NCBI RefSeq assembly: GCF_009469605.1
Contig: NZ_SSXU01000003.1
Span: forward strand, 186,001 to 250,000
Reading direction: 5' to 3'
Length of the DNA: 64,000 nt
Source of the DNA: Zoogloea sp. 1C4
Lineage (GTDB): Bacteria; Pseudomonadota; Gammaproteobacteria; Burkholderiales; Rhodocyclaceae
Positions within the stretch are counted from its first letter, which is position 1. Every line of letters starts with the position of its first letter. Both the position numbers and the translations under genes were made by a program. Below are positions 3,181 through 40,964 of the stretch, one piece after another. The notes under the pieces were generated by a model that did no database searches, was not told where the DNA came from, and worked only from the letters and a program-made list of their open reading frames with translations.

Positions 3181-3243
3181 CGAAATTCTCCTAGTGGCTT
3201 GGGAGCCGAACCGCAATCCAGGCCGGGGGCGCAACAAAAGACA

Positions 3244-3276
3244 AGACCCCCGCCGGTTGCGCGCCGGCGGGGGTCT
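3244..3276 (-). terminator. Attenuator terminator in the ilvB leader
   Basis: A perfect 13-bp stem, AGACCCCCGCCGG with CCGGCGGGGGTCT, closes a 7-base loop. On the minus strand it is followed by TGTCTTTTGTTG. It lies between the leader peptide stop (3304) and the ilvB start (3180), where an amino-acid attenuator would sit. The hairpin is directly visible; its role as attenuator is inferred from the valine-rich leader just upstream. Confidence 0.85.
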
Positions 3277-3303
3277 GAAATTTCCTTGGACTGCCTTGGA
3301 CCC

Positions 3304-3384
3304 TTACGACGCGCGAACACCTACGCTTACTACGCGTACTACGGCTACGACGTCGACAGGCAGGAAAGTGGCGAAGAGGGTCAC
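3304..3384 (-). CDS. ilvB leader peptide, valine-rich (26 residues)
   Basis: A GTG-initiated frame of 26 codons contains nine valines, eight of them in the second half in the run VDVVAVVRVVSVGV, and ends at TAA 27 bases before the attenuator stem. There are two leucines and no isoleucine. A stop codon lies six codons upstream of the GTG, so this is the only usable start in the frame. It has no strong Shine-Dalgarno sequence. The dense valine run followed by a terminator hairpin is the classic layout of ribosome-mediated attenuation, as known for E. coli ilvBN. Leader function is inferred. Confidence 0.75.
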   Translation of the reverse strand: MTLFATFLPVDVVAVVRVVSVGVRAS

Positions 3385-3421
3385 GGCAAAGTCACGAAGT
3401 CATATACAAGACTGACTCTGA

Positions 3422-3450
3422 ATTATTCTCACAAAGCCCCGAAAACACAA
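3422..3450 (-). promoter_or_regulatory. Candidate sigma-70 promoter of ilvBN
   Basis: On the minus strand a TTGTGT (3445-3450) and an AATAAT (3422-3427) are separated by 17 bases. The -10 box matches five of six consensus positions. A transcript starting near 3415 would reach the leader GTG after about 30 bases. The -35 box is weak. Confidence 0.45.
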
Positions 3451-3500
3451 GTGATTTTTTGCGACGCTTCCATCAAGGGAAGACGCATGTCACACCCGGA

Positions 3501-5165
3501 CTAGGAATCACGCAACACCCGACGGAGGATCTTGCCGACATTGCTCTTGGGCAGCTCATCCCGGAACTCGACAAACCTGGGTACCTTGTAACCTGTCAGC
3601 CCGGCCCGGCAGTGGGCGATCAGCGCCTCGGCGTTCAGGCTGGCATCCTTGCGGACGACGAAGATCTTCACCGCCTCGCCCGAATGCTCATCCGGCACGC
3701 CCAGCGCGGCCACCTCCATCACCCCGGGATGCGAGGCAACCACATCCTCGACCTCGTTGGGATAGACGTTGAAGCCGGACACCAGGATCATGTCCTTCTT
3801 GCGATCGACGATGCGGACAAAACCCTGCTTGTCGATGGTCGCCACATCGCCGGTGCGCAGGTAACCATCATGGGTGAAGGTCCGCGCGGTTTCCTCGGGG
3901 CGGTTGTAATAACCCTTCATGACCTGCGGCCCCTTCACGCACAGCTCGCCTGGCATGCCGAGGGAAACCTCGTAGCCGTCATCGTCGCGCAGGCTCACAT
4001 CGGTGGATGAGATCGGCAGACCGATGGAGTGGTTGAACTCCGGCAGATCCAGCGGATTGATGCACACCGCCGGCGAGGTCTCGGTGAGGCCATAGGCTTC
4101 GGCCAGCGTCTTGCCGGTGACCTTCTTCCAGCGCTCTGCCACCGCCTGCTGAACCGCCATGCCACCACCCAGCGCCACCTTGAGCGAGGAAAAGTTGAGC
4201 TTCTCGAACTCGGGATTGTTGAGCAGCGCGTTGAACAGGGTATTCACGCCGGTGATCACGGTAAACGGATACTTGCCCAGCTCAGCCACGAAGCCCGGGA
4301 TGTCCCGCGGATTGGTGATCAGGATGTTCGTCGCGCCGATCTTGAAGAAAGTCAGGCAGTTCGCGGTAAGCGAGAAGATGTGATACAGCGGCAAGGCGGT
4401 GATGATGATCTCCTCGCCTTCCTTCACGTATGGGCTGATCCAGGCGTGGGCCTGCTGCAGATTGGCCACGATGTTGCCATGGGTCAGCATCGCCCCCTTG
4501 GCAACGCCGGTGGTGCCACCCGTGTATTGCAGATAGGCGAGATCATCATGGCCGATCTGTACCGGCTGGAACGGATGGGCAGCCCCCTGACCCAGCGCAT
4601 CCCGAAATGCGACACACCCCGGCAGGCTCCACGGCGGCACCATCTTCTTTACATGGCGGACCACGAAGTTGACCAGCAGCGACTTCGGAAAACCCAGCAT
4701 GTCGCCAAGGCCGGTGACCACAACGTGCCGCAGGGCCTTGGTGTTGCCGATGACCTCCTGCAGCGTGTGGGCGAAGTTCTCGACGATGACAATCGCCTCG
4801 CACCCGGCGTCATTGAGCTGATGCTCAAGCTCGCGCGCGGTATACAGCGGATTGACGTTCACGACGGTGAAGCCCGCCCGCAGAATGCCAAACATCGCCA
4901 CGGGATATTGCAGGCAGTTGGGCATCATCAGCGCGACCCGGGCACCCTTGGCAAGCTTCAACTCGCCCTGAAGGTAGCCGGCAAACTGCCGCGACAGCAA
5001 TTCGAGATCACTGTAGCTGATGGACTTGCCCATGCAGACATAGGCGGTCCGATCGGCAAACTTCCGGACGCCCTTGTCAAAAAGATCGGCCAGCGAAGAA
5101 AACTCGCCAACATTGATTTCGGCGGGCACGCCAGGGGGATAGCTTTGCAGCCAGATCTTGTTCAT
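3501..5165 (-). CDS. fadD: Long-chain acyl-CoA synthetase (AMP-forming)
   Basis: A 554-residue member of the adenylate-forming superfamily that activates fatty acids to acyl-CoA with ATP. The P-loop motif [13 protein letters not shown] lies near residue 205, the adenylate motif [10 protein letters not shown] near 355, and the C-terminal [11 protein letters not shown] and VDRKKDMI motifs are intact, followed by the catalytic-lysine region [12 protein letters not shown]. Length and motifs fit E. coli FadD. The ATG at 5165 is preceded by AAAGGAGACAAA. It stands as a single gene upstream of the ilv leader on the same strand. Substrate chain length cannot be read from the sequence. Confidence 0.88.
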
Positions 5166-26244: not shown

Positions 26245-28244
<2,000 letters not shown>

Positions 28245-28296
28245 CGCCAATCCACCGCCCAAAACCGCAATTGGCTGGGGCATCTGTCTCATTTGC

Positions 28297-28342
28297 CGAA
28301 CAGGCGTCTCCATTTGACGAAGAGAATTGAGACAGGTGTCTC
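28297..28342. promoter_or_regulatory. Upstream activator sites of the porin/thiC region (probable AcoR sites)
   Basis: A perfect inverted repeat GAGACA-GG-TGTCTC lies at 28329-28342. A degenerate copy (ACAGG-CGTCTC) lies 32 bp upstream at 28297-28310, about three helical turns away, and TGAGACAGATG occurs on the minus strand at 28281-28291. The perfect site is about 88 bp before the expected porin transcription start, a normal distance for a sigma-54 activator. The same palindrome occurs before acoX (34384-34397). Confidence 0.75.
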
Positions 28343-28396
28343 CTTATTCGCCCGTGAATTGACCCCAATTCACCATCCGGCGCGAATTTCATTTGC

Positions 28397-28412
28397 TGGC
28401 AAAGAAATTGCA
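28397..28412 (+). promoter_or_regulatory. Sigma-54 promoter of the porin-PQQ dehydrogenase operon
   Basis: TGGCAAAGAAATTGCA has GG and GC separated by exactly 10 bases, a TGGCA -24 element and a consensus TTGCA -12 element. Transcription would start near 28423, about 80 bp before the porin ATG at 28505. Confidence 0.82.
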
Positions 28413-28504
28413 ATGAGTCTCCCGTGCCCGGCCCGCCCAGGGAAAAAGGCATCCGTTGCTTCGGCGAGGTATTCCGGAGCCACCAATTAAAAGAGGAGAC
28501 AACC

Positions 28505-29641
28505 ATGAAACCGATTTCTTCCACCCGCCGTGGTCGAATCGACGGCCGACTTGCTGCCGCCGTCGTTCTGCCCGTTCTTGCATTTCCGGCGTTTGCCGAA
28601 ACCAATGTCGAGATCTACGGGATCATCGACGCAGGCCTGCTGTACCAGAGTCGCACCGACCCGGACGGCAAGAGCAAGACGTCCATGGAAACCAGCGGCC
28701 TGCGCCAGTCGATCCTGGGCTTCAAGGGCGACCGCGACCTGGGGCGCGGCCTCGAAGGCTTCTTCAATCTGGAGATCCACTACGACACCAACAACGGCCG
28801 CTTTCATGGCACGGGCGACGCGGAAGGCACCGGCACCCCGTTCTTCCGGCGTCAGGCCAACCTCGGCCTGAAGGGCGACTGGGGCAGCGTGACCCTGGGC
28901 CGCCAATATGGCCCGGCGCTGCTCGCCCATATCGGCACCGAGCCCCGCGCCTTCAAGGAGCAATTCTCCAACCTTTATGCCTGGGCCTATAACCAATACC
29001 AGGCCACTGCCGGCGCGCCGGGCACCGACCGCAATACCAATAACGACGTGGGGATCTTCTTCAGCAACGCGATCCAGTACCGCAATACCGTCGGGCCCTT
29101 CAGCTTCGGCGTGCTGTGGTCGGCCGGCGGGCAGTCGGGCAGCACCCAGAAGAACAGCGCCTGGGCCCTGGGCGGCACCTATACCGGCCCGGTGATCCTG
29201 TCGGCCTCGTATCAGGTCATCAAGGACGAGCAGACCGCCAACGACAACGTGCGCCACGGCGGCCTGGGCATTGCGGTGCCCTTTGGCGATTTCACTTTCA
29301 AGGCCAATTACCTCAACGCCCGCAACAACCACTCGAACGGCCTCAACGTGTCGAACGTGAACGCCATCGGCGTGGGCGTCGACTGGAAATGGCGCGCCGA
29401 CAACACCGCGACCCTCGCCTACTACGACAACAAGGACCGCCTCAATTCGGGCGATCACACCCGCAACGTCGTGATCTCCAACGATTTCGCGCTGCGCAAG
29501 GACACGACGCTCTACGTCCAGACGGCCTTCGTCGATGCGGATTCGGCGGCGACGATCAAGACCAGCATCGTCGCGGCGGGCATTCCCAGCGTGGGCCATC
29601 GCTCGACGCTGCTGAACGCCGGCATCAACTTCACTTTCTGA
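28505..29641 (+). CDS. Outer-membrane porin (Gram-negative porin family 4)
   Basis: The 378-residue protein has a signal peptide cleaved after LAFPAFA and then the typical betaproteobacterial porin start ETNVEIYGIIDAGLLYQS. The strand pattern, the LGFKGDRDLGRGLEGFFNLE and NLGLKGDWGSVTLGRQYGP segments and the C-terminal GINFTF ending in Phe are hallmarks of trimeric 16-strand porins. GAGGAG precedes the ATG at 28505; an earlier in-frame ATG has no support. It is the first gene after a sigma-54 promoter and probably admits the substrate of the following dehydrogenase. Confidence 0.93.
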   Translation: MKPISSTRRGRIDGRLAAAVVLPVLAFPAFAETNVEIYGIIDAGLLYQSRTDPDGKSKTSMETSGLRQSILGFKGDRDLGRGLEGFFNLEIHYDTNNGRFHGTGDAEGTGTPFFRRQANLGLKGDWGSVTLGRQYGPALLAHIGTEPRAFKEQFSNLYAWAYNQYQATAGAPGTDRNTNNDVGIFFSNAIQYRNTVGPFSFGVLWSAGGQSGSTQKNSAWALGGTYTGPVILSASYQVIKDEQTANDNVRHGGLGIAVPFGDFTFKANYLNARNNHSNGLNVSNVNAIGVGVDWKWRADNTATLAYYDNKDRLNSGDHTRNVVISNDFALRKDTTLYVQTAFVDADSAATIKTSIVAAGIPSVGHRSTLLNAGINFTF

Positions 29642-29739
29642 GACCGCCCGCGCCCGGACACCGGAGGCGGGCCTCCCCCGCCCTCCCCGCCCCGCTGCCG
29701 GACCGCCGATCCGCACCCTATTCCACGAGGAACCCCATC

Positions 29740-31404
29740 ATGAAACGTGTCCTGTCCCCCGTCTTTGCCGCCGCCTCGCTGCTCGTCGCCGGCGCCTGTG
29801 TGGCTGCCGATGCGCGCCCCGGCTACGCCGACCCCGACAACTGGCCGCAGTACCACCGCAGCTCCAACGCCTGGCGCTTCAGCCCGCTCACCCAGATCAA
29901 CAAGCAGAACGTGAAGAAGCTGAAGGTGGCCTGGGTGCACCAGCCGGGCAACATCGCCCACGGCCTGCAAGCCACCCCCATCGTGCTGGACGGCGTGCTG
30001 TATTACATCTCGGCCGACAACAACGTGTGGGCCGTGGATGCCGCCACCGGCAAGACGATCTGGCACTACACCACCAAGCTCAACCCCATCGCCAAGCAGG
30101 CCTTCTACGCCTCGGCCAGCCGCGGCGTGACGGTCGGCCGCGGCAAGGTCTTCGTTGGCACTCTCGACGGGCGCTTCCTGGCCCTCGACCAGAAGACCGG
30201 CAAGGAGCTGTGGTCCACTCAGCTCACCGATCCCAAGACCCAGTACGGCGCGCTGTTCTCGTCGCCGCCCCAGCTGGCTGGCGACGTGCTCTTCGGCGGC
30301 ACCACCGGCGGCGACCAGCCCATCGCCGGCAAGATCTACGCAGTGAATGCCGACACCGGCAAGCCGGCCTGGAACTTCGAGATCATCAAGGATGACCCGG
30401 CAAGCTGGCCGGGCGAGAGCGGCAAGGTGGGCGGCGGCTCGGCGTGGATGCCGGGCACCTACGACGAAGCCTCCGACACCATCTATATCGGCACCTCCAA
30501 CGCCGCGCCGGATTACTACACCCTGGGCCGCGAGGGCGACAACAAGTACACCTCGACCCTGCTCGCCATCGACCCCAAGACCGGCAAGCTCAAGTGGCAC
30601 CGCCAGGAGATCCCCCACGACAGCTGGGATTTCGACGCGGCCTACGAGGCGCTGGTGGTCAAGAAGGGTGGCAAGGACGTGATCGTCCACCTCAACAAGA
30701 GCGGTTTCGTGTTCGTGATGGACAAGCAGGACGGCAGCCTGGAAAACGTCTGGCAGTTTGCCGAGAACATGAACTGGGCCAAGGGCATCGACCCGAAGAC
30801 GGGCGCCCTGATCGAGCCGCGCCGCCCCCAGCCGGGCAAGCGTGAACTGCTGTGCCCCAACCTGCTCGGCGCCCGCAGCTGGAACCACGGCGCCTACAAC
30901 CCGGGCACCGGGCTCTGGTACACCCACGCGATGGAAGTGTGCAACGAGGTCGTCGCCGGCAAGGACGACCCGGCCAACCTCACCGCCATCTCGGCCCTGT
31001 CGCTGGGCATCGACGAGATCAAGCTGGTGCCGCCGCCTTCCGGCAAGAAGCCCGATGGCCGGCTGGATGCCCGCGACCCGCTCACCGGCAAGATCAAGTG
31101 GAGCATCCGCTACCCGCTGCCCCCGCTCGCCAGCGTGCTCACCACCGGCGGCGGGCTGGTGTTCACCGGCGACATGGAAGGCCACCTGTTTGCCTACGAC
31201 GCCGACAACGGCAAGGAGCTGTGGCGCTTCAACGCCGGCTCCGGCGTGCGCGGCGGCCCGGTGAGCTACTCCGTCAAGGGCAAGCAGTACATCGTGATCC
31301 CCACCGGCCTCGGCTCCCACGCGCCGGGCTTCCTGGCCGGCGCCTTCCCGCAGATCAAGGATCTGCCCGGTGGCGCGGCCCTGATGGCCTTCACCCTCGA
31401 GTAA
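29740..31404 (+). CDS. PQQ-dependent alcohol dehydrogenase, atypical, with DxD metal motif
   Basis: A periplasmic quinoprotein of the methanol/ethanol dehydrogenase superfamily, 554 residues with a signal peptide (MKRVLSPVFAAASLLVAGACVAAD) and eight-bladed propeller W-motifs such as VFVGTLDGRFLALDQKTGKE. The likely catalytic Asp is D297 in HDSWDFDA, and D299 two residues later is the extra Asp typical of lanthanide-dependent enzymes (XoxF, ExaF/PedH). N254 in GTSNAAP fits a metal ligand. The ligand that is usually Glu appears as D192 (TTGGDQP). The vicinal cysteine pair of the family is absent; the matching stretch reads FYASASRGV. Substrate is inferred from context: possibly 2,3-butanediol, yielding acetoin. 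Confidence 0.9.
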   Translation: MKRVLSPVFAAASLLVAGACVAADARPGYADPDNWPQYHRSSNAWRFSPLTQINKQNVKKLKVAWVHQPGNIAHGLQATPIVLDGVLYYISADNNVWAVDAATGKTIWHYTTKLNPIAKQAFYASASRGVTVGRGKVFVGTLDGRFLALDQKTGKELWSTQLTDPKTQYGALFSSPPQLAGDVLFGGTTGGDQPIAGKIYAVNADTGKPAWNFEIIKDDPASWPGESGKVGGGSAWMPGTYDEASDTIYIGTSNAAPDYYTLGREGDNKYTSTLLAIDPKTGKLKWHRQEIPHDSWDFDAAYEALVVKKGGKDVIVHLNKSGFVFVMDKQDGSLENVWQFAENMNWAKGIDPKTGALIEPRRPQPGKRELLCPNLLGARSWNHGAYNPGTGLWYTHAMEVCNEVVAGKDDPANLTAISALSLGIDEIKLVPPPSGKKPDGRLDARDPLTGKIKWSIRYPLPPLASVLTTGGGLVFTGDMEGHLFAYDADNGKELWRFNAGSGVRGGPVSYSVKGKQYIVIPTGLGSHAPGFLAGAFPQIKDLPGGAALMAFTLE

Positions 31405-31509
31405 GCGGCTCCGCAGCACGGCCACGCCGGACGCGGCTGCCGTGCTGTTCCGGGGTGCGGCGTCGAGACCTCCCCTCGCCGCACCCCATTTTTTTGGATG
31501 AGCACAACA

Positions 31510-32187
31510 ATGAAAACTTCGATCCGTCTCCGCCCGACGCTGCTGCGCGGGCTTGCCCTCCTGTCGATCGCCACCGCCGCCGTCGCGGTCGCGCCACCAG
31601 CCGACGACGCCAAGGCCCGCGTAGCCGCCGGCAAGAATCGTTTCGACGCCCTGTGCGTGAGCTGCCACGGCGCAGCCGGCACCGGCGTCGCCCCTGGCAG
31701 CAGCGCCGCCAGCTATGGCCCGCGCCTCGCCGGACGTACCGATCTCGACCCTACGCTGATCCACGAACGCATCGTGCGCGGCAAGCATGGCGACAAGGCC
31801 ATGCCGCCCTGGGGCACGGTGCTCGACGAGGAGGCCATCGAGCAGCTGACCGCCTACGTCAAACTGATCGCCGCCACCCAGCCAAAGGCCGCCACCCACC
31901 TGACGCTGGCGCCCTTCGATCTGGATGACCCGGCCCGCGTGGAGGCCGGTCGCCGTCGCTTTGCCAAGACCTGCGCCGGCTACTGCCACGGCCACGAGGG
32001 CACCGGCGGACGGGCGCCGGACTTCAAGGGCCGCGGCGACGACCTTCCGCCCGAGCTGGCCTTCGAAACCATCAGCAAGGGCCGCCAGGGCGCCGAGGTG
32101 ATGCCTCCCTGGGGCGCCGCCTTCACGCCAGACCAGATCTGGGAGCTGGTGGCCTATCTCAAGCATCTGGGGCGCCAGCAGCCGTAG
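31510..32187 (+). CDS. Dihaem cytochrome c, likely electron acceptor of the PQQ dehydrogenase
   Basis: The 225-residue exported protein has a signal peptide (MKTSIRLRPTLLRGLALLSIATAAVA) and two cytochrome c domains. The first haem site is CVSCH (C49-H53). The second is CAGYCH (C155-H160), with three residues between the cysteines, a rare CX3CH form. Likely axial methionines are in AMPPWG and VMPPWG. I chose the ATG at 31510, which has GGATGAG upstream; another lies at 31498. It is the last gene of the porin-dehydrogenase operon and ends before a bidirectional terminator. Confidence 0.88.
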   Translation: MKTSIRLRPTLLRGLALLSIATAAVAVAPPADDAKARVAAGKNRFDALCVSCHGAAGTGVAPGSSAASYGPRLAGRTDLDPTLIHERIVRGKHGDKAMPPWGTVLDEEAIEQLTAYVKLIAATQPKAATHLTLAPFDLDDPARVEAGRRRFAKTCAGYCHGHEGTGGRAPDFKGRGDDLPPELAFETISKGRQGAEVMPPWGAAFTPDQIWELVAYLKHLGRQQP

Positions 32188-32208
32188 CGCCCGCAGCGTC
32201 AGCCACAA

Positions 32209-32236
32209 GAAAAAGGGGCCACGAGGCCCCTTTTTC
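32209..32236. terminator. Bidirectional terminator between the cytochrome gene and acoR
   Basis: GAAAAAGGGGCC pairs perfectly with GGCCCCTTTTTC around the loop acga. A-run and T-run on the two arms allow it to stop transcripts from both convergent genes. Confidence 0.93.
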
Positions 32237-32253
32237 GTTAGCGCTGGAAGTCG

Positions 32254-34266
32254 TCACCACGCCTGACGATTGGGCGCGACGATCTGCAGCTTGGCGAGTT
32301 TGCGGTAGAAGGTGGCCCGCGACAGCCCCAGCTCCCTGGCCGACACCGTCACCTGCCACTGGTTACGGCGCAGGGTTTCGAGCATGCGTTCGCGCAGCGC
32401 CAGATCCTTGGGCTTGAGGGCAGGCGCCGGGGCTTCCGTCTCCGCAACCAGCGGCGGCAGTGCCGGCTGGGCCGCCGCCCGCATCAAGGTCGACGGCGCG
32501 GCGTTGAAGAGATCCGGCGGGAACGACTGGGGCATCAGCAGCGGCCCGTCGCTGATCGCGCAGGCGTAGCGCATCGCATGGCGCAGCTGGCGGATGTTGC
32601 CCGGCCACGGGTGGCGCAGCAGGGCGTCGCGGGTTTCGTCGGCAAGGCGCAGCTCGCGGCTCATGGCCTGGGCTTCCTCGTGCAGCACCCGGTCGATCAC
32701 CGTGCCGATGTCCTCCCGCTCCCGCAGCGGCGGCAGCAGGAAGACCGCGCCGTTGAGCCGGTAGTACAGATCCTCCCGGAAACGCCCTTCGGCCACCAGC
32801 CGCGGCAGATCCTGGTGGGTGGCGCAGACGATGTGCAGGCGCACCGGAATCGGCTGCTCGGCGCCCAGCGGCAGCACCTCGCCCTCGGCCAGCACCCGCA
32901 GCAGACGGCTCTGCAGCACCAGCGGCATGTCACCGATCTCGTCGAGGAACAGCGTGCCGCCGTCGGACTGGATGATCTTGCCCCGCGCGCCCTTGCTGCG
33001 GGCGCCGGTGAAGGCGCCGTCCCGGTAACCGAAGAGCTCGCTCTCGATCAGGCTTTCCGGGATCGCCGCACAGTTGAGGGCCACGAAGGGCTGTTTGTGG
33101 CGGTCGCTAGCGTCGTGGATGGCCTTGGCGAAGGCCTCCTTGCCGGTGCCCGTCTCGCCCAGCAGCATCACCGGGATGTCGCGATTGACCACCTTGAGGG
33201 CGCGCTGCACGTTGTTGCGCACCCGTGGGTCGTCGGTGGCCAGGTGGCCGAAGCCCCGCGCCTCGGCAGTGCTGACGGCCTCGCCGCCGGATGCCACCGG
33301 ATGCGCCGGCGCGGAGCGGGGTCGGGCGTCGGGGGCGCGGAGCAGCCCGAAGATGCGCGCGCCACTACCCTGGATGCGCAGCGGGATCGCCTGCCCCGGG
33401 CGGGCGTGGGACGCAGAGAGCAGATCTGCCGCCGAACACTCGAAGAGATCGCCGATGTATTCCGGCGCCGGCCCGCGGCGCTGCAGCAGCTCCTGCCGGG
33501 CGCGCCGGTTGCCACCCACGATGCGGCCGCCGTCATCGAAGGCAACCAGGTAATCGGTATGCACGTGCATCAGCTCGGGGCTGCGGCCCAGCTGGAGGAT
33601 CCAGTAGCTGCGCAGGCTGTGGAAGGCGAAGGCGTCCTCGATCAGGCGCGCCTTCTCCACCACCATCTGGAAGACCAGCACCTGGCTCTCGCGGTGCTCG
33701 GGCGAATTGAGGGCCGAGGCATCGAGGACCGCCAGCGGCTCGTCGTCGATGCCGAAGATCGGCGCCGAGCTGCAGGTGAAGGCGATGTTATGGGAGCGGA
33801 AGTGCTCGTCCCGATGCACGAGGATCGGCTGGCGATCGACAAGGCTGGTGCCGACGCCGCAGGTGCCCTCTTCCATCTCGGACCAGCGGGTGCCATCGCG
33901 AAAGCCTTCGGCGCGGAATTCGCGCTCCAGCTCGGGCACGGTGCGCAGGTCGACGGTGACGCCGGCTGCGTCGGTGAGCAGCACGCAGTATTTGGCCGGC
34001 CGCAGCGAATCGTAAAGGCGGTCGACGCCCTCCCGCGCGATGCGCATGAAGGTATCGAGCCGCTCCCGGTGCTCGCGCAGCTCGCGGGCCGTGACCACCT
34101 GCGGCAGGCTGGCCTGCCCCGGGTCGACACGATAGTTGCTGAGGGAGCGCTCCCACGACCGTGCCAGCCTGTCGTGCACCGGCTGGCGGCTTGCGATGCT
34201 GCCGCGCTCCACCACATCGACCACCCGCGCCACATGGCGGGCGATCTCTCCATGACCCCGAATCAT
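32254..34266 (-). CDS. acoR: Sigma-54-dependent activator, AcoR family
   Basis: The 670-residue regulator has an N-terminal GAF-type sensor (about 60-215), a sigma-54 interaction AAA+ domain with the Walker A motif GETGTGKE near 375 and the sigma-54 contact loop GAFTGA at 417-422, and a C-terminal Fis-type helix-turn-helix (VTVSARELGLSRATFYRKL). This is the architecture of AcoR, the acetoin-responsive activator of aco operons. The ATG at 34266 has AAGGGG upstream. It lies between the PQQ dehydrogenase operon and acoXABC, both of which have sigma-54 promoters and the same palindrome. Confidence 0.93.
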   Translation of the reverse strand: MIRGHGEIARHVARVVDVVERGSIASRQPVHDRLARSWERSLSNYRVDPGQASLPQVVTARELREHRERLDTFMRIAREGVDRLYDSLRPAKYCVLLTDAAGVTVDLRTVPELEREFRAEGFRDGTRWSEMEEGTCGVGTSLVDRQPILVHRDEHFRSHNIAFTCSSAPIFGIDDEPLAVLDASALNSPEHRESQVLVFQMVVEKARLIEDAFAFHSLRSYWILQLGRSPELMHVHTDYLVAFDDGGRIVGGNRRARQELLQRRGPAPEYIGDLFECSAADLLSASHARPGQAIPLRIQGSGARIFGLLRAPDARPRSAPAHPVASGGEAVSTAEARGFGHLATDDPRVRNNVQRALKVVNRDIPVMLLGETGTGKEAFAKAIHDASDRHKQPFVALNCAAIPESLIESELFGYRDGAFTGARSKGARGKIIQSDGGTLFLDEIGDMPLVLQSRLLRVLAEGEVLPLGAEQPIPVRLHIVCATHQDLPRLVAEGRFREDLYYRLNGAVFLLPPLREREDIGTVIDRVLHEEAQAMSRELRLADETRDALLRHPWPGNIRQLRHAMRYACAISDGPLLMPQSFPPDLFNAAPSTLMRAAAQPALPPLVAETEAPAPALKPKDLALRERMLETLRRNQWQVTVSARELGLSRATFYRKLAKLQIVAPNRQAW

Positions 34267-34383
34267 TGTTTTTTCCCCTTTGTTTATTAATAGGTAGGGA
34301 TTTTTATGTATTGCTTCCTTTGGTAGCGCGAAGCGTATTCCGTTACGTCAATTAAATCAATGCCGCGACACCACCGAGAAAAT

Positions 34384-34397
34384 GAGACAGGTGTCTA
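34384..34397. promoter_or_regulatory. Upstream activator site of the aco operon (probable AcoR site)
   Basis: GAGACA-GG-TGTCTA matches the perfect palindrome found before the porin operon at 13 of 14 positions. It lies about 190 bp before the expected aco transcription start and about 120 bp before the acoR start codon on the other strand, so it could serve both. Confidence 0.75.
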
Positions 34398-34549
34398 ATT
34401 TTCCTGGTTATTTTCGGTCGCCTGTATCAACTTATGGCTCACGTCATTTTATTGCGCCGCCGCAATAGCCAGCCCAATAACGCCAATCACACTGATTGCC
34501 CTGGCTATTTCCACTAATGCGCCGCAATATGAAAAATACGGGCAATTGC

Positions 34550-34565
34550 TGGCACGCGAACTGCT
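34550..34565 (+). promoter_or_regulatory. Sigma-54 promoter of the aco operon
   Basis: TGGCACGCGAACTGCT has a perfect TGGCACG -24 element and GG and GC pairs 10 bases apart; the -12 element is CTGCT instead of TTGCT. Transcription would begin near 34577, shortly before the acoX GTG at 34603. Confidence 0.85.
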
Positions 34566-34602: not shown

Positions 34603-35700
34603 GTGAGACAAATATCGGAAGCCCCTCCTGTGATTGGCATCGTGGCCAATCCTGCGTCCGGGCACGATATCCGGCGATTGACCAGCGGGGCCTCGGTTTA
34701 TTCCGCCGCCGACAAGGTCAATTGTGTCGAACGGTTGCTCGGCGCCCTCGGCGCGACGGGGGTGACCCGCGTACTGATGATGCCCGACCGGGCCGGCATC
34801 GCCGTCCGCCTCCGCAAGGCGGTCGAGCTCAATCGCCGTCGCGGCAACGCCCGCTGGCCGCGGGTGGATTTCATCGACATGCCGGTGCTGGAGGACGACC
34901 GCGACACCGTCCGGGCCGTGCGCGAGATGCGCGCAGCCGGGGTGGCGATGATCGTCGTGCTCGGCGGTGATGGCACCCACCGGGCGGTGGCGCTGGCGTC
35001 GGGCGACATTCCGCTGGCGACGCTCTCCACCGGCACCAACAACGCCTTTCCGGCCCTGGGCGAAGCGACCGTCGTCGGGCTGGCGGCTGGGCTCGCAGCC
35101 ACCGGGCGCGTGATGCCCGCCTGCATCCACAACAAGTGCCTGCGCATCACGCACCCCGGCGGCGAATCCATGGCCCTGGTGGATGTGGGCGTGATGCCGG
35201 CCGAGCACATCGGCGCCCGGGCGGTGTATGCCGCCGATGCCGTCGAGGCCGTGTTTGCGGCCTTCGCCGAGCCCGACGCGATCGGACTTTCCGCCATCGC
35301 CGCCGCCTGCGGCCCGATCGCCCGCACCGCGCCGTTCGGACGCTGGGTGCGCCAGGGCGCCGGCACGGCCCGCCTCGCGGCGATTTCGCCCGGGCTCGTG
35401 CAGGCGGTGGAGATTGCCGCCAGCGGCCTGATGCAGCCCAGCATCGCCTTCGAGCTCGGCACCCAGCCCGCCATCCTGGCCCTCGACGGCGAGCCCGAGA
35501 TCGTGCTCGACGGCCGTGGCCCGGCGAGCGTGCGGCTCGCCCTCGATGGCCCGATCACCCTCGACGTGGCGGCCACGCTGGCCGCCGCCCATGCGGCAGA
35601 CGCCCTCGTGGTGACTGCCAGACAAGAACCCGCCCTGCGCGACGGCCCGCCCGCCGCGCCGGGGCAAACGGGCGCCGATCACACGATCGCCCCGGCCTGA
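34603..35700 (+). CDS. acoX: AcoX, ATP-NAD-kinase-like acetoin catabolism protein
   Basis: The 365-residue protein resembles the ATP-NAD/AcoX kinase family, with the N-terminal phrase IGIVANPASGHDIRRLTSGAS and the GGDGTHR motif near residue 125. AcoX is a conserved first gene of aco operons, but its function is not known. I place the start at the GTG at 34603, with GGAG 7 bases upstream; the longer frame from 34546 overlaps the sigma-54 promoter and cannot be fully translated from that transcript. It is followed by acoA after 68 bp. Confidence 0.88.
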   Translation: MRQISEAPPVIGIVANPASGHDIRRLTSGASVYSAADKVNCVERLLGALGATGVTRVLMMPDRAGIAVRLRKAVELNRRRGNARWPRVDFIDMPVLEDDRDTVRAVREMRAAGVAMIVVLGGDGTHRAVALASGDIPLATLSTGTNNAFPALGEATVVGLAAGLAATGRVMPACIHNKCLRITHPGGESMALVDVGVMPAEHIGARAVYAADAVEAVFAAFAEPDAIGLSAIAAACGPIARTAPFGRWVRQGAGTARLAAISPGLVQAVEIAASGLMQPSIAFELGTQPAILALDGEPEIVLDGRGPASVRLALDGPITLDVAATLAAAHAADALVVTARQEPALRDGPPAAPGQTGADHTIAPA

Positions 35701-35768
35701 ATCCGGGCGGCGGACTCACCGGGCCGCCGCTGGATGCCCTCAACACTTCCAACAAACTGGAGACAACC

Positions 35769-36743
35769 GTGACCAAGAAACTCGAACGCGAAGACCTGCT
35801 GAAGGCCTATCGCACCATGCGCACCATCCGTGAGTTCGAAGAACGCCTGCACACCGATTTCGCCACCGGCGAGATCCCGGGCTTCGTGCATCTTTACGCC
35901 GGCGAGGAGGCGTCGGCCACCGGCGTGTGCATGAACCTCACCGCCGAAGACCACATCGCCAGCACCCACCGGGGCCACGGCCACTGCATCGCCAAGGGCG
36001 TCGACCCGGTGGGGATGATGGCGGAGATCTGGGGCCGCACCACCGGCACCTGCAAGGGCAAGGGCGGCTCGATGCACATCGCCGACCTGTCGGTGGGCAT
36101 GCTGGGCGCCAACGGCATCGTCGGCGGCGGCGGCCCGCTGGTGTGCGGCACCGCGCTCGCCGCCAAGCTGCGCGGCCAGCCCTTCGTGAGCGTGTGCTTC
36201 TTCGGCGACGGCGCGTCCAACCAGGGCACGATCTTCGAGGCGATGAACCTGGCCTCGGTGTGGAACCTGCCGGTGATCTTCCTGGCCGAGAACAACGGCT
36301 ACGCCGAAGCCACCTCGTCCAAGTTCTCGGTGGCCTGCGAAAACATCGCCGACCGCGCCTCGGCCTTCGGCATGCCCGGCGTGACCGTGGATGGCTTCGA
36401 CTTCTTCGCGGTATACGAGGCCGCCGGCGAGGCCATCGAGCGCGCCAGGAACGGCGGCGGCCCGTCGCTGGTGGAGGTGAAGCTGTCCCGCTACTACGGG
36501 CACTTCGAGGGCGATCAGCAGACCTACCGCGCCCCGGGCGAAGTGCAGGCCCTGCGCGACAACAAGGACTGCCTGATGCAGTTCGCCCGCCGCGTCACCC
36601 AGAGCGGCGCCCTCACCCAGGCCGACCTCGACACCATCGACGCCGAGGTGAAGGCCCTCATCGACGGTTCGGTCGTCAAGGCCAAATCCGATCCCAAGCC
36701 GAGCGAAGCCGACCTGCTCACCGACGTGTACGTGAGCTACTGA
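35769..36743 (+). CDS. acoA: Acetoin dehydrogenase E1 component, alpha subunit
   Basis: AcoA with AcoB forms the thiamine-diphosphate E1 that cleaves acetoin into acetaldehyde and an acetyl group. The 324-residue product has AYRTMRTIREFEERL at the N-terminus, STHRGHGHCIAKG, the KGKGGSMHIAD loop, and the TPP motif GDGASNQGTIFEAMNLA ending in AENN. It begins with GTG at 35769, after TGGAGACAACC. The length equals known AcoA proteins. Confidence 0.96.
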   Translation: MTKKLEREDLLKAYRTMRTIREFEERLHTDFATGEIPGFVHLYAGEEASATGVCMNLTAEDHIASTHRGHGHCIAKGVDPVGMMAEIWGRTTGTCKGKGGSMHIADLSVGMLGANGIVGGGGPLVCGTALAAKLRGQPFVSVCFFGDGASNQGTIFEAMNLASVWNLPVIFLAENNGYAEATSSKFSVACENIADRASAFGMPGVTVDGFDFFAVYEAAGEAIERARNGGGPSLVEVKLSRYYGHFEGDQQTYRAPGEVQALRDNKDCLMQFARRVTQSGALTQADLDTIDAEVKALIDGSVVKAKSDPKPSEADLLTDVYVSY

Positions 36744-36781
36744 GCCGCCACCCCAAGGAATTCAAAGGAGACAAACCCATC

Positions 36782-37792
36782 ATGGCAAGAAAAATCACCT
36801 ACCAGCAGGCCATCAACGAGGCCCTCGACCAGGAAATGTCCCGCGACCAGAACGTCATCGTCATGGGCGAGGACGTGGCCGGTGGCGAGGGCTCGCCCGG
36901 CGAGCAGGACGCCTGGGGCGGCGTGCTGGGCGTCACCCGCGGCCTCTACCACAAGCACCCGGGCCGCGTGATCGACACCCCGATCTCCGAATCCGGCTAC
37001 GTGGGCGCGGCGGTCGGCGCGGCCTGCTGCGGCATGCGCCCGGTGGCCGAACTGATGTTCGTGGATTTCCTCGGCGTGTGCTTCGACCAGATCTTCAACC
37101 AGGCCGCCAAGTTCCGCTACATGTTCGGCGGCAAGGCCGAGACACCGGTGGTCATCCGCGCCATGTACGGCGCCGGCTTCCGCGCCGCGGCCCAGCACTC
37201 CCAGTGCCTCTACAACATCTTCACCCACATCCCGGGCCTGAAGGTGGTGGTGCCGTCCAACCCCTACGACGCCAAGGGCCTGCTGATCCAGTCGATCCGC
37301 GACAACGACCCGGTGATCTTCCTGGAGCACAAGGCGCTCTACACCATGGAAGGCGAGGTGCCGGAAGAGCTCTACACCGTGCCCTTCGGCGAAGCCGCCG
37401 TGGTGCGCGAAGGCAACGACGTGACCATCGTCGCCATCGGCCGCATGGTCCAGAAGGCCCAGGAGGCCGCCGCCGAGCTGCAGAAGGCCGGCGTGCAGTG
37501 CGAGATCATCGACCCGCGCACCACCTCGCCCCTCGACACCGACACCATCCTCGAAAGCGTCGAGAAGACCGGCCGCCTGATCGTGGTGGATGAATCCCAT
37601 CCCCGCTGCTCCATGGCCTCCGACATCGCCGGCCTCGTCGCCGAAAACGCCTTCGCCAGCCTCAAGGCGCCGATCCGCCAGATCACCGGCCCCCACTCTC
37701 CCGTGCCCTTCAGCGATTCGCTCGAAGAGCTCTACATCCCCAGCGCCGCCAAGATCGTCGCTGCCGCCAAGTCCCTCAAGGAGTACCGCTGA
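36782..37792 (+). CDS. acoB: Acetoin dehydrogenase E1 component, beta subunit
   Basis: The 336-residue partner of AcoA in the E1 heterotetramer. It opens with ARKITYQQAINEALDQEMSRD, carries VIVMGEDVAGGEG and DTPISESGYVGAAVGAA, and ends in a transketolase C-domain with VDESHPRCSMASDIA. CAAAGGAGACAAACC precedes the ATG. The stop codon overlaps the acoC start by one base (TGATG), so translation is coupled. Confidence 0.96.
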   Translation: MARKITYQQAINEALDQEMSRDQNVIVMGEDVAGGEGSPGEQDAWGGVLGVTRGLYHKHPGRVIDTPISESGYVGAAVGAACCGMRPVAELMFVDFLGVCFDQIFNQAAKFRYMFGGKAETPVVIRAMYGAGFRAAAQHSQCLYNIFTHIPGLKVVVPSNPYDAKGLLIQSIRDNDPVIFLEHKALYTMEGEVPEELYTVPFGEAAVVREGNDVTIVAIGRMVQKAQEAAAELQKAGVQCEIIDPRTTSPLDTDTILESVEKTGRLIVVDESHPRCSMASDIAGLVAENAFASLKAPIRQITGPHSPVPFSDSLEELYIPSAAKIVAAAKSLKEYR

Positions 37793-38904
37793 TGTCCGCC
37801 ATCCATCCCGTCACCATGCCCAAGTGGGGCCTTTCCATGCAGGAGGGGAAGGTCAACGGCTGGCTCAAGCAGGTGGGTGATGCCATCGAGAAGGGCCAGG
37901 AGATCGTCGAGGTCGAGAGCGAGAAGATCGCCGGCGCCATCGAGGCGGCCGAGAGTGGCCTGCTGCGCCGCACCCTCGCCAACGAGGAAGACGTGCTGCC
38001 GGTGGGCGGCCTGCTGGGCGTGATCGCCGACGCGGGCGTGTCGGATGCCGACATCGACGCCTTCGTGGCCGACTACCTGTCCAACTTCAAACCCGCCGAC
38101 GGCGAAGCCGAGGACCAGGGCCCCACGCCCCAGAAGATCGACGTGAATGGCCACCGCCTGCGCTACCTCAAGCGCGGCGAAGGCGGCGAGCCGATGCTGC
38201 TGATCCACGGCTTCGGCGGCGACCTCAACAACTGGCTGTTCAACCATGAGGCCCTCGCCGCCGACCGGGAGGTGTACGCCCTCGACCTGCCCGGCCACGG
38301 CGAATCCACCAAGGACGTGGGCGAAGGCACCCTGGAGAGCCTCGCCGACACCGTGGCGGCCTTCATGGAGGTGGTGGGTGTCGATGCCGCCCACCTGGTC
38401 GGGCATTCGATGGGCGGCGCGGTGTCGCTGATGGTCGCCAAGCGCCACCCGGCGCGGGTGCGTTCCCTGTCGCTGGTGTGCTCGGCGGGCCTCGGCAGCG
38501 AGATCAACAGCGGCTACATCGACGGCTTCGTCGCCGCCGGCAGCCGCAACGCCCTCAAGCCTGTGCTGGCCGATCTCTTCGCCGACAGCGGGCTGGTCAC
38601 CCGCCAGCTGGTGGACGACCTGCTCAAGTACAAGCGCCTCGAAGGCGTCGGCAGCGCGCTCACCACCCTCTCCGGCAAGCTCTTCGCCGGTGGCCAGCAG
38701 GCCGTGGTGCTGGCCGACGCGCTGCCGGAGATCGCCAAGCCGGTGCTGCTGGTGTGGGGCGAGGAAGACCGCATCATCCCGGTCGCCCACGCCAACGCGC
38801 TGTCCGGCCGCTACCAGGTGGAAGTGCTGCCCAACCGCGGCCACATGGTGCAGATGGAGGCCGCCAACGAGGTGAACCGGGCCATCGCCCGCTTCGTCGG
38901 CTGA
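37792..38904 (+). CDS. acoC: Acetoin dehydrogenase E2 (dihydrolipoyl acetyltransferase, alpha/beta-hydrolase type)
   Basis: AcoC carries the acetyl group on a lipoyl arm and transfers it to CoA. The 370-residue product has an N-terminal lipoyl domain with the lipoylated lysine at about K45 ([10 protein letters not shown]), a linker, and an alpha/beta-hydrolase domain with nucleophile motif GHSMGG and oxyanion motif HGFGGD. The absence of a classical acyltransferase domain is characteristic of AcoC. A separate E3 gene is not present, so a general lipoamide dehydrogenase is probably used. Confidence 0.95.
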
Positions 38905-38956: not shown

Positions 38957-39910
38957 ATGACCCAAGCCATCGACGGGCACGTCGGCCTGCGCGGCGCCGA
39001 CAAGCTCGCCCGCATCCCGGTCAAGGTCGACAGCGCCCGCGCCTCGCCCCCCAAGCCGCCCTGGCTGCGCGCCCGCGACCCGGGCACCGCGGTGGTCAGC
39101 GCCCTGCGCGAGCGCCTGCGCAGCCACACCCTGCACACCGTCTGCGAAGAGGCCGACTGCCCCAACATCGGCGAATGCTTCACCCGCGGCACCGCCACCT
39201 TCATGATCATGGGCGGCATCTGCACCCGGCGCTGCCCCTATTGCGACGTGGCCCACGGCCGCCCGGCCGCGCTGGATGCGGACGAGCCACGCCGCCTCGC
39301 CGACGCCGTGCGCGAGATGCGACTGCGTTACGTGGTCATCACCTCGGTGGATCGCGACGACCTGCGCGACGGCGGTGGCGCCCACTTCGCCGCCTGCATC
39401 GACGCGGTGCGCGGCGCCGTGCCGGGCATCCGCATCGAGGTGCTGACGCCGGACTTCCGCGGCCGCGAGGCGCTGGCGCTCGACCGTCTGGCCGCCACGC
39501 CGCCCGACGTCTTCAACCACAACATCGAGACCGTCGAGCGCCTGTACCGGGCCGTGCGCCCCGGCGCCGATTACCACGGCTCGCTCGCCCTCATCGCGCG
39601 GGTCAAGCGCCTGCTGCCGACGGTGCCCACCAAGTCCGGCCTGATGCTGGGCCTGGGCGAGACGGACGAGGAAATCCTCGCCACCCTGCGCGACCTGCGC
39701 GCCCACGGATGCGACATCCTCACCCTCGGCCAGTACCTGCGTCCGTCGCCATCCCACCTGCCGGTGGATCGCTACGTGACGCCGGAGTCCTTCGACGCGT
39801 GGCGGCACGTCGCCCTTGGGATGGGCTTTTCCGAAGTGGCCGCCGGGCCGCTGGTGCGCTCGTCCTATCGCGCGGATGAGCTCGCCCCCGGCGTGCAGGA
39901 GGCGCGATGA
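38957..39910 (+). CDS. lipA: Lipoyl synthase
   Basis: LipA inserts two sulphur atoms into octanoyl-protein to make lipoate. The 317-residue radical SAM enzyme has the auxiliary cluster motif [12 protein letters not shown], the SAM cluster motif CTRRCPYC and the conserved C-terminal RSSYRADE with the cluster-ligand serine. CGGAGAGACTCC precedes the ATG. It lies 52 bp after acoC and its last four bases overlap the thiS start (ATGA). A copy inside the aco operon would provide the lipoate that AcoC needs; whether lipB/lipA exist elsewhere cannot be seen. Confidence 0.95.
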
Positions 39911-40113
39911 ACACGGTCATCTGCGTAAACGGGCGAGCGGCCGACGTGCCATCCGGCTGGAAAGTGACCGATCTGGTGGATTCGCTCGGCTACACCGGCA
40001 AGCGGATCGCGGTGGAAGTGAACGGGCAGATCGTCCCCAAGGGGCGCTACGCCGAGACCGGGCTCTCAGGCCAGGACCGGGTCGAGATCGTCGTGGCCGT
40101 GGGAGGAGGCTAG
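39907..40113 (+). CDS. thiS: Thiamine biosynthesis sulphur carrier ThiS
   Basis: A 68-residue ubiquitin-like protein whose C-terminal Gly-Gly is made into a thiocarboxylate to donate sulphur to the thiazole ring. The tail reads VVAVGGG, with a run of three glycines. The ATG overlaps the lipA stop by four bases (ATGA), so the two are translationally coupled. thiG begins 2 bp after it. Confidence 0.93.
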
Positions 40114-40115
40114 TC

Positions 40116-40964
40116 ATGGGCAACATGGAACCAAACTTCAGCACCACCGCCGGGCCGCTGGATACGCCCTTCGTGCTGGGCGGCCAGGTCTTCGGCTCGC
40201 GCCTGCTGGTGGGCACTGGCAAGTACCGGGATTTCGCCCAGACTCGCGACGCCATCGACGCCAGCGGGGCGGAGATCGTCACCGTGGCGATCCGCCGGGT
40301 GAACATCGGCCAGGACCCGTCCGCCCCGAGCCTGCTCGACGCCCTCGACCCCAAGCGTCACACCCTGCTCCCCAACAGCGCCGGCTGCTACACCGCAGAC
40401 GACGCCGTGCGCACCCTGCGCCTCGCCCGCGAGCTGCTGGACGGCCACGATCTCGTCAAGCTCGAGGTGCTGGGCAGCCCCGAGACGCTCTTCCCAAACA
40501 TGCCCGAAACCCTGCGTGCCGCCGAGACGCTGGTGCGCGACGGCTTCCGGGTGATGGTGTATTGCTCCGACGATCCGGTTCAGGCGCGCATGCTCGAAGC
40601 CATCGGCTGCGTGGCGATCATGCCGCTGGCGAGCCTCATCGGCTCGGGCATGGGCATCCTCAACCCGTGGAACCTGCGCATCATCATCGACGAATCCCGC
40701 GTGCCGGTGATCGTGGATGCTGGCGTCGGCACCGCGTCGGACGCCGCCATCGCGATGGAGCTGGGCTGCGACGGCGTGCTGATGAACACCGCCATCGCCG
40801 CCGCCGGCGACCCGGTGCGCATGGCGCTGGCGATGCGGCAAGGGGTCAGCGCCGGCCGCCACGCTTTTCTTGCCGGCCGCATGCCCCGGCGCGAATACCA
40901 GGGCAGCCCGAGCTCGCCGGTGGAAGGCGTGATCGGCCAGCGCCCGGGAAGGCGAGTGGCCTGA
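40116..40964 (+). CDS. thiG: Thiazole synthase ThiG
   Basis: ThiG forms the thiazole phosphate of thiamine from deoxyxylulose phosphate, dehydroglycine and ThiS thiocarboxylate. The 282-residue TIM-barrel protein begins MGNMEPNF, with [11 protein letters not shown], the Schiff-base lysine region DLVKLEVLG, and the phosphate loop [28 protein letters not shown] precedes the ATG at 40116; an ATG three codons later is an alternative. It closes the acoXABC-lipA-thiSG operon. The usual thiE and thiO are not here. Confidence 0.95.

Follow-up and report, generated by a model that had tools for sequence, protein, structure and literature searches.

A candidate AcoR regulon joining a quinoprotein dehydrogenase operon to the acetoin cleavage genes of Zoogloea sp. 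1C4

In Pseudomonas putida KT2440, the pyrroloquinoline quinone (PQQ)-dependent dehydrogenases PedE and PedH oxidize (2S,3S)-2,3-butanediol to acetoin, which is cleaved by AcoABC (PMC8427195). Production of PedE and PedH is controlled by AgmR (PedR1) and by PedS2/PedR2 (PMC12997753, PMC13390443). The AcoR protein of Cupriavidus necator responds to acetoin (PMC7057948), and the contact of AcoR with DNA is described as not fully characterized (PMC10018347). Here we analyze a stretch of 64,000 nucleotides from Zoogloea sp. 1C4 (contig NZ_SSXU01000003.1, positions 186,001 to 250,000; hereafter the window), in which an operon for a porin, a PQQ dehydrogenase and a dihaem cytochrome c lies close to acoR and the acoXABC operon. 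The original prediction proposed that the two operons form a diol-to-acetoin regulon. Conservation of the operators, promoter geometry, and co-variation of the operators with the AcoR recognition helix strongly support the joint AcoR/sigma-54 control contained in this proposal, and the diol-to-acetoin step is a plausible fit. In all likelihood, judging from these sequence features, AcoR controls both operons.

The palindrome GAGACA-GG-TGTCTC is perfect in front of the porin operon and matched at 13 of its 14 positions before acoXABC, each operon is preceded by a good sigma-54 promoter, and acoR, encoding the sigma-54 activator, lies between them (Table 1); in these points, and in the identities of the genes, the original prediction proved correct. 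The consensus of sigma-54 promoters is TGGCACNNNNNTTGCW. The interval from 28281 onward that had been named at first also covers weaker copies of the palindrome, and the register of the degraded distal copy is the place at which many relatives carry a good second copy. When up to three mismatches are allowed, the window contains 16 palindrome matches, no more than chance (mean 20.5). At one mismatch or fewer, the 5.02 Mb genome of which the window is a part (G000, contig C75) contains exactly the two places described here and no third copy, while a reversed-pattern control gave no match at all. This genome has three other PQQ dehydrogenase loci, none of which shows an operator-like site upstream within the approximately 4 kb taken around each; a single two-mismatch match at these loci lies inside a coding region. 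Since 258 of 399 genomes of the order hold a palindrome with no more than one mismatch somewhere, a single match of this kind is not rare in itself, and it is place and conservation that carry weight; order-wide motif counting was uninformative for the same reason.

To follow the two promoters through related bacteria, we compiled 31 loci from a contig search, of which 29 have a dehydrogenase with 71-95% identity, and added further aco loci from acoX-bearing genomes (12 of 150 of the same family and 23 of 299 of the Azohydromonas family). A class-wide search for acoX had returned only the window genome among 369 genomes, a sampling too sparse, and was replaced by these family-level searches. 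The resulting set of 35 PQQ loci, all with sufficient sequence upstream, leaves aside L007 and L011, where the start of the contig cuts the operon, L024 (by oversight), the distant paralogues or fragments L032 and L033, and the plasmid loci L108 and L109; the set of 47 aco loci leaves aside ten acoX starts in L204 and L214-L221, mostly of another gene arrangement, and L188 and L189, duplicate loci within a single genome, were not counted. Operon starts were set by hand and are approximate for L016, L018, L019, L020, and L021. Within 500 bp upstream of the PQQ operon, GMGACANNTGTCKC is found with no more than one mismatch in 33 of the 35 loci (26 exact) but in only 0.6% of Markov shuffles, although many loci come from close relatives and the counts given here are not independent events; L024, outside the set, has an exact match as well, which raises the figure to 34 of 36. 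On the aco side, a site of the same quality stands upstream of acoX or acoA in 31 of 47 loci, against 0.7% of shuffles. Twelve of the remaining 16 aco promoters have two mismatches, among them four with exact GTGACANNTGTCAC and four with CGGACANNTGTCTC, and two of the ten additional acoX starts (L204, L220) carry a site with at most one mismatch.

The promoter of the PQQ operon is preserved in its layout too. A sigma-54 site with two or fewer mismatches and intact GG/GC occurs in 29 of the 35 loci, compared with 6.9% of shuffles, and in most Zoogloea, Denitromonas-type and Aromatoleum loci two operators, 32-34 bp apart, are placed about 100 and 68 bp before the -24 element; some loci have one operator copy, and others (L006, L008, L193-L195, L028, L029, L198) show a shift of 10-20 bp. 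The window count at up to three mismatches is what one would expect if the palindrome in front of both operons were a chance resemblance. We reject this explanation, which retains practically no probability, because there are only two sites with one mismatch or fewer in the genome and because the operator is conserved at 33 of 35 PQQ loci; promoter geometry and the co-variation with the AcoR helix likewise speak against it.

The recognition helix of AcoR could be read in 40 of 42 loci (not in L199 and L200) and falls into three classes. The helix SRATFYRK (18 loci, including the window) pairs with aco operators that have A before GACA and T in the other arm, on both arms in 12 loci and on at least one arm in 18 of 18. 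CRAT[VI]YR[QR] (14 loci) pairs with C/G in 14 of 14, and [SA]RMT[LVI]YR (8 loci) pairs with T/A, on both arms in four, on one arm in three and on none in one. For the most part, the PQQ operators match the class of the local AcoR and aco operator: all 11 of the 11 CRAT loci have at least one copy with C/G in its two arms, and a copy with A/T in its two arms is present in 8 of the 14 SRATF loci. Each helix class corresponds to one clade on the AcoR tree, whereas on the dehydrogenase tree the CRAT label requires at least two changes by well-supported branches; the PQQ operators thus appear to have changed together with the regulator. Denitromonas-type dehydrogenases, which are 84-88% identical to that of the window, carry C/G operators, and the best AcoR of these genomes is distant in sequence (43-44% identical). 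Of the seven genomes, five encode it at 8.5-9.3 kb from the operators, one at a distance of about 1 Mb and one on a separate contig. This pattern is the trace expected if operator and regulator co-evolved.

These data also bear on the idea that a different activator, an AcoR paralogue, acts through this palindrome in front of the PQQ operon, in which case the motif but not the signal would be common to the two operons. The window genome does encode three further AcoR-like proteins (35-40% identity, E<=1e-70), of which the one that was tried (L139) had a helix that could not be read, and GCGACA-type sites precede other PQQ genes in genomes with a GAGACA-class AcoR. However, the readable paralogue helices in relatives (SRSTLYR, SRNTLYR, CRTTIYR) differ from SRATFYRK, and the PQQ operators mostly keep to the class of the local AcoR; we consider a separate activator very improbable. 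AcoR is very probably the protein that binds both operators.

The operator link between the PQQ and aco operons is more than a neighborhood effect. In G402, G404, and G406, all draft assemblies, the two operons reside on different contigs and the operator is kept at both; in Zoogloea oleivorans (L010), the PQQ and aco sides are separated by about 7 kb with unrelated genes, and the contig ends before acoX. In G405 the contig breaks inside acoR, and this genome is uninformative on the separation of the operons. In the window genome and eight Zoogloea-type relatives (G399-G406), all 20 places with an exact match to GAGACANNTGTCTC lie before aco or acoR (8) or before a PQQ dehydrogenase (12), and these 12 comprise eight copies of the same operon and four of a paralogue with 34-35% identity. 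In four sister genomes (L088, L092, L095, L097), GAGACAGCTGTCTC stands before a distant PQQ dehydrogenase paralogue (34-35% identity), an observation that suggests a larger AcoR regulon. Exact GMGACANNTGTCKC was found at 70 places in 24 genomes, 33 of them within loci already in the set; the 37 outside include five aco promoters, ten places before PQQ paralogues (32-35% identity), and one in a cluster that combines lipA with an acoR-like gene and a PQQ paralogue, though not directly before the latter. As separate observations, GCGACANNTGTCGC sites stand before another PQQ dehydrogenase (32% identity) in L090, L093, L099, L101, and L248; L090 has good sigma-54 sites on either side, and its neighboring genes encode a histidine kinase, a TonB protein and a metallo-beta-lactamase-fold protein. 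A second cluster of an Azohydromonas genome (L242:6000-11999) contains lipA, an acoR-like gene (matched in three pieces), a porin preceded by GAGACACCTGTCGC and a PQQ paralogue of 33% identity.

Several relatives organize the two operons differently. In the Denitromonas-type locus L018, the PQQ operon is divergent from an operon for E1 alpha, E1 beta, a free lipoyl domain, an E2 core and lipoate ligase, and each side of the divergent pair has its own operator and sigma-54 site. The E1/E2 operon of L018 also holds genes for a gluconate-2-dehydrogenase subunit 3-like protein and a glucose-methanol-choline (GMC) oxidoreductase (2054-4258), possibly a second alcohol dehydrogenase. In the Azohydromonas loci L026 and L029, the PQQ and cytochrome genes are near acoCBAX-acoR and operators precede both, while the PQQ locus gave no match to the porin of the window. 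A second tandem operon for porin, PQQ dehydrogenase and cytochrome is located between the first operon and acoR in L004 (5478-9323), L005 (4315-8130), and L011 (2772-6614); it likewise has a sigma-54 site and is preceded by two copies of the palindrome. The closest model to its PQQ protein in L004 is TIGR03074 (membrane glucose/quinate type), below cut-off; the protein gave no match to a solved chain at 1e-100, and we found no support for regarding it as a PedE-type enzyme.

The quinoprotein of the window scores 438.6 bits against TIGR03075 (PQQ methanol/ethanol dehydrogenases), below the curated cut-off of 480, which places it as a relative outside the curated family. Its best solved relatives are about 31-32% identical, and the best Foldseek match of its predicted structure is the lanthanide-dependent PedH of P. 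putida (TM score 0.85, 31% identity); the structure model is middling (predicted local distance difference test score 74.8), and for this reason we draw no argument from the active-site pocket. Lanthanide-dependent quinoproteins as a rule carry an extra Asp two residues after the catalytic Asp, and methanol/ethanol dehydrogenases are marked by a vicinal Cys-Cys pair and a metal-ligand Glu. The motif W296-D297-x-D299 of the window enzyme provides both the catalytic Asp and the extra Asp, which are invariant in an 18-row alignment; the D299 equivalent is lost only in L191 among aligned orthologues of at least 63% identity, and the corresponding residue is Asp in PedH and Ser in 1FLG. At the position of the metal-ligand Glu, the window enzyme has Asp192 (GGD for GGE), and the vicinal Cys pair is replaced, with FYASASRG where the solved relatives have CCD..NRG. 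The roles assigned here to D297, D299, Asp192, and the Cys-pair position are presumptive. The enzyme probably uses a lanthanide.

The operators and promoters, the genes present, their conservation and the way in which the operators vary with the AcoR helix are read directly from the DNA. We infer AcoR binding, acetoin as effector (as known for C. necator AcoR; PMC7057948) and co-expression of both operons; the substrate, the metal and the feedback loop are less certain. In the mechanism that we propose, acetoin-activated AcoR would bind the TGAGACANNTGTCTCA operators before acoXABC and before the porin/quinoprotein/dihaem cytochrome operon and would drive the sigma-54 promoters of both. The porin would admit a small alcohol, and the periplasmic PQQ dehydrogenase, probably with a lanthanide, would oxidize a secondary alcohol or diol, most likely an isomer of 2,3-butanediol, to acetoin and pass the electrons to cytochrome c. 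Acetoin would then enter the cell, where AcoABC would cleave it to acetyl-CoA and acetaldehyde, and as inducer it would keep both arms switched on. Conversion of 2,3-butanediol to acetoin by the PQQ enzyme is plausible; given the joint control, acetoin as the product is the simplest reading. We assign a probability of roughly 0.55 to this proposal as a whole, i.e., to a single AcoR regulon with two arms including the butanediol-to-acetoin role.

Joint control by AcoR would also be compatible with a quinoprotein that oxidizes ethanol and acetaldehyde, or mixed short alcohols that accompany acetoin in fermentation fluids, and does not make acetoin. Many alcohols, primary as well as secondary, are substrates of PedE and PedH, and acetaldehyde is a product of AcoABC (PMC8427195); the several different PQQ paralogues that carry the operator in sister genomes fit a broad use of alcohols. 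However, an aldehyde dehydrogenase was not seen among the ten cluster genes searched, and a feeder pathway would account no less well for a dedicated porin and an operator in common with acetoin cleavage, so that we view this alternative as unlikely, if deserving of serious attention. Still less probable, in our estimation, is a regulator that senses a signal other than acetoin (an alcohol or another hydroxyketone), with the aco-type complex and the quinoprotein degrading another diol. The sensor region of AcoR is 35-40% identical to those of the other aco-locus AcoRs compared outside the SRATF class, and only 35-39% to those of aco loci without a PQQ operon (L210, L211); the E1 subunits of the Denitromonas-type partner are only about 40-52% identical, and the GMC oxidoreductase and subunit 3-like genes of L018 would be in keeping with a different diol. 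Against this, AcoC scores above the cut-off for acetoin dehydrogenase E2, and acoXABC is complete in the window.

A number of observations weigh against the butanediol-to-acetoin regulon. A match of 31-32% does not fix the substrate of the quinoprotein. Among aco promoters, just 31 of 47 (33 of 57 when the added ten are included) have a site with one mismatch or fewer, in the seven divergent Denitromonas-type loci both promoters lie in one intergenic region so that one site can count twice, and L027 has only a two-mismatch site before its PQQ operon. In L207 (2866-4822), dehydrogenase and cytochrome genes adjoin aco without operator or sigma-54 site, its AcoR belongs to the RMT class, and no 6-base inverted repeat common to its two promoters was found; this locus is a natural counter-example to joint control, and the link is not universal. 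Of the exact GMGACANNTGTCKC places outside the set, 21 of 37, one of them in the window genome, are near neither aco nor PQQ genes, and in a Skermanella relative (63% identity) the 25.6 kb examined contain no aco genes. Furthermore, PQQ operators with a single C/G-type arm occur in 6 of the 14 SRATF loci, and the helix/operator association comes from three AcoR clades, with a support of only 93/97 and a long-branch warning for CRAT. Reporters for C. necator AcoR also answered L-lactate (PMC7057948).

The lack of matches to other butanediol dehydrogenases (BDH) counts in favor of the proposal but is not specific. No homologue of an aco-linked medium-chain dehydrogenase/reductase (MDR) was found at E<=1e-45 in the window genome or in 24 others with a PQQ orthologue; the query was the putative butanediol dehydrogenase next to acoC in L210, for which no curated model is above cut-off. 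The short-chain dehydrogenase/reductase (SDR) model 23BDH exceeded its cut-off in none of 23 genomes. We had considered such absences as proof that the PQQ enzyme replaces a nicotinamide adenine dinucleotide (NAD)-dependent enzyme and dropped this argument, because seven of eight other aco genomes searched also lack the MDR homologue (these eight were not searched for a PQQ orthologue elsewhere) and sub-threshold SDR matches occur in all 23 genomes.

From left to right, the window contains thiC (minus strand), palindrome and sigma-54 site, porin, PQQ dehydrogenase and dihaem cytochrome c, followed by the AcoR-type activator gene (minus strand, divergent from acoX), the second palindrome and sigma-54 site, acoX, acoA, acoB, acoC, lipA, and a ThiG-like gene. 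The activator has a sigma-54 interaction domain and a Fis-type helix-turn-helix. E1 alpha, E1 beta, AcoC-type E2 and acoX are all present: AcoC reaches 511 bits with NF011457 (cut-off 307), NF006667 is above its cut-off, and TIGR03182 is below its own. Both rpoN and pqqC (PQQ synthesis) are encoded in the genome, Rfam at gathering thresholds gave no match in the window, and the closest relatives by dehydrogenase are a Zoogloeaceae metagenome-assembled genome (95% identity) and then Zoogloea species (about 90%).

Table 1. Operators, promoters and genes of the two operons, in positions of the window
Feature	Position	Strand	Basis or remark
Further weak operator-like copy GGGGCATCTGTCTC, 2 mismatches	28277..28290	.	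Motif scan
Degraded distal operator copy, right half-site mostly kept	28297..28310	.	Read from sequence; 32 bp upstream of proximal copy
Putative AcoR operator, proximal copy, perfect palindrome GAGACAGGTGTCTC	28329..28342	.	68 bp upstream of sigma-54 site
Sigma-54 (-24/-12) promoter TGGCAAAGAAATTGCA of porin-PQQ-cytochrome operon	28397..28412	+	One mismatch to consensus
Outer-membrane porin (Porin_4)	28505..29641	+	Domain match
PQQ dehydrogenase, presumed periplasmic, divergent methanol/ethanol-type clade	29740..31404	+	Profile matches, alignments, fold match
Dihaem cytochrome c, likely electron acceptor of PQQ dehydrogenase	31510..32187	+	Profile/domain matches
AcoR-type sigma-54 activator, recognition helix ...LGLSRATFYRKL	32254..34266	-	Profile/domain matches, alignment, tree
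Putative AcoR operator of aco operon GAGACAGGTGTCTA, one mismatch	34384..34397	.	166 bp upstream of sigma-54 site
Sigma-54 promoter TGGCACGCGAACTGCT of acoXABC	34550..34565	+	One mismatch to consensus
acoX, NAD-kinase-like	34603..35700	+	NAD_kinase domain and position
acoA, E1 alpha	35700..36743 (open reading frame bounds, exact start not fixed)	+	Profile/domain matches
acoB, E1 beta	36737..37792 (open reading frame bounds, exact start not fixed)	+	Profile/domain matches
acoC, acetoin dehydrogenase E2	37792..38904	+	NF011457 above cut-off
lipA, lipoyl synthase after acoC	38957..39910	+	Profile match

Cofactor genes flank the cluster on both sides, with lipA and the ThiG-like gene after acoC (38957-40964) and thiC beside the porin gene (26245-28161); L018 and L026 have a lipoate ligase gene instead. 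The flanking genes probably provide lipoate and thiamine for acetoin dehydrogenase, cofactor supply being the probable role of lipA after acoC. Outside the joint loci, plasmid pSR-3 of Skermanella (L108:11947-14939) encodes a 63% identical dehydrogenase together with a small cytochrome and a substrate-binding-like protein, and a 45% relative on a Rhodococcus plasmid (L109) has the same two kinds of neighbor.

A wider formulation, which we put forward tentatively and hold to be somewhat less probable than its negation, is that a betaproteobacterial AcoR regulon of Zoogloea, Denitromonas-type bacteria, Aromatoleum, and Azohydromonas couples periplasmic, probably lanthanide-using diol oxidation to acetoin cleavage, with acetoin as both product and inducer; that the quinoprotein defines a new clade in which the metal site has been remodeled; and that AcoR operators obey a three-letter helix code, which the quinoprotein operon tracked when the type of regulator changed. 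If true, the regulation of acetoin metabolism would gain a second, respiratory arm, the use of butanediol by bacteria without a recognized NAD-dependent butanediol dehydrogenase would be explained, and inducer and substrate class would be predicted for an uncharacterized clade of quinoproteins. The three-class helix/operator code for AcoR is open to one-base operator swaps.

The R,R- and S,S-forms of BDH are NAD-dependent, cytoplasmic enzymes. In the 2,3-butanediol operons of P. aeruginosa and P. putida, butanediol oxidation is coupled to acetoin cleavage as proposed here, and control by AcoR has been suggested (PMC8427195); in contrast to the window, R,R-BDH or S,S-BDH is encoded in the same operon, not a quinoprotein with its own porin. 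PedE and PedH of P. putida resemble the window enzyme in being PQQ enzymes, PedH being its best fold match and sharing the extra Asp, but they are not AcoR-controlled, are only about 31-32% identical, and differ from it at the vicinal Cys pair, which the window enzyme lacks, and at the metal-ligand Glu, replaced there by Asp. With the AcoR/sigma-54 aco operons of C. necator, Pseudomonas, and Bacillus, the locus has in common the type of activator, acoR beside acoXABC and the sigma-54 promoter, and the AcoR-controlled aco operon of Bacillus likewise has a palindromic upstream operator (PMC10018347). The aco operons covered by PMC8427195 contain a butanediol dehydrogenase gene within the aco operon itself, whereas here the operator is found on a second operon for porin, quinoprotein and cytochrome. 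No AcoR-controlled quinoprotein operon was described among the open-access full-text matches listed, a scope that leaves out most subscription papers and is no proof of novelty; within it, the earlier statement that this joint arrangement had not been described holds. AcoR-run aco operons are known, as is quinoprotein oxidation of butanediol under other regulators; what appears to be new here is a quinoprotein operon very probably under AcoR.

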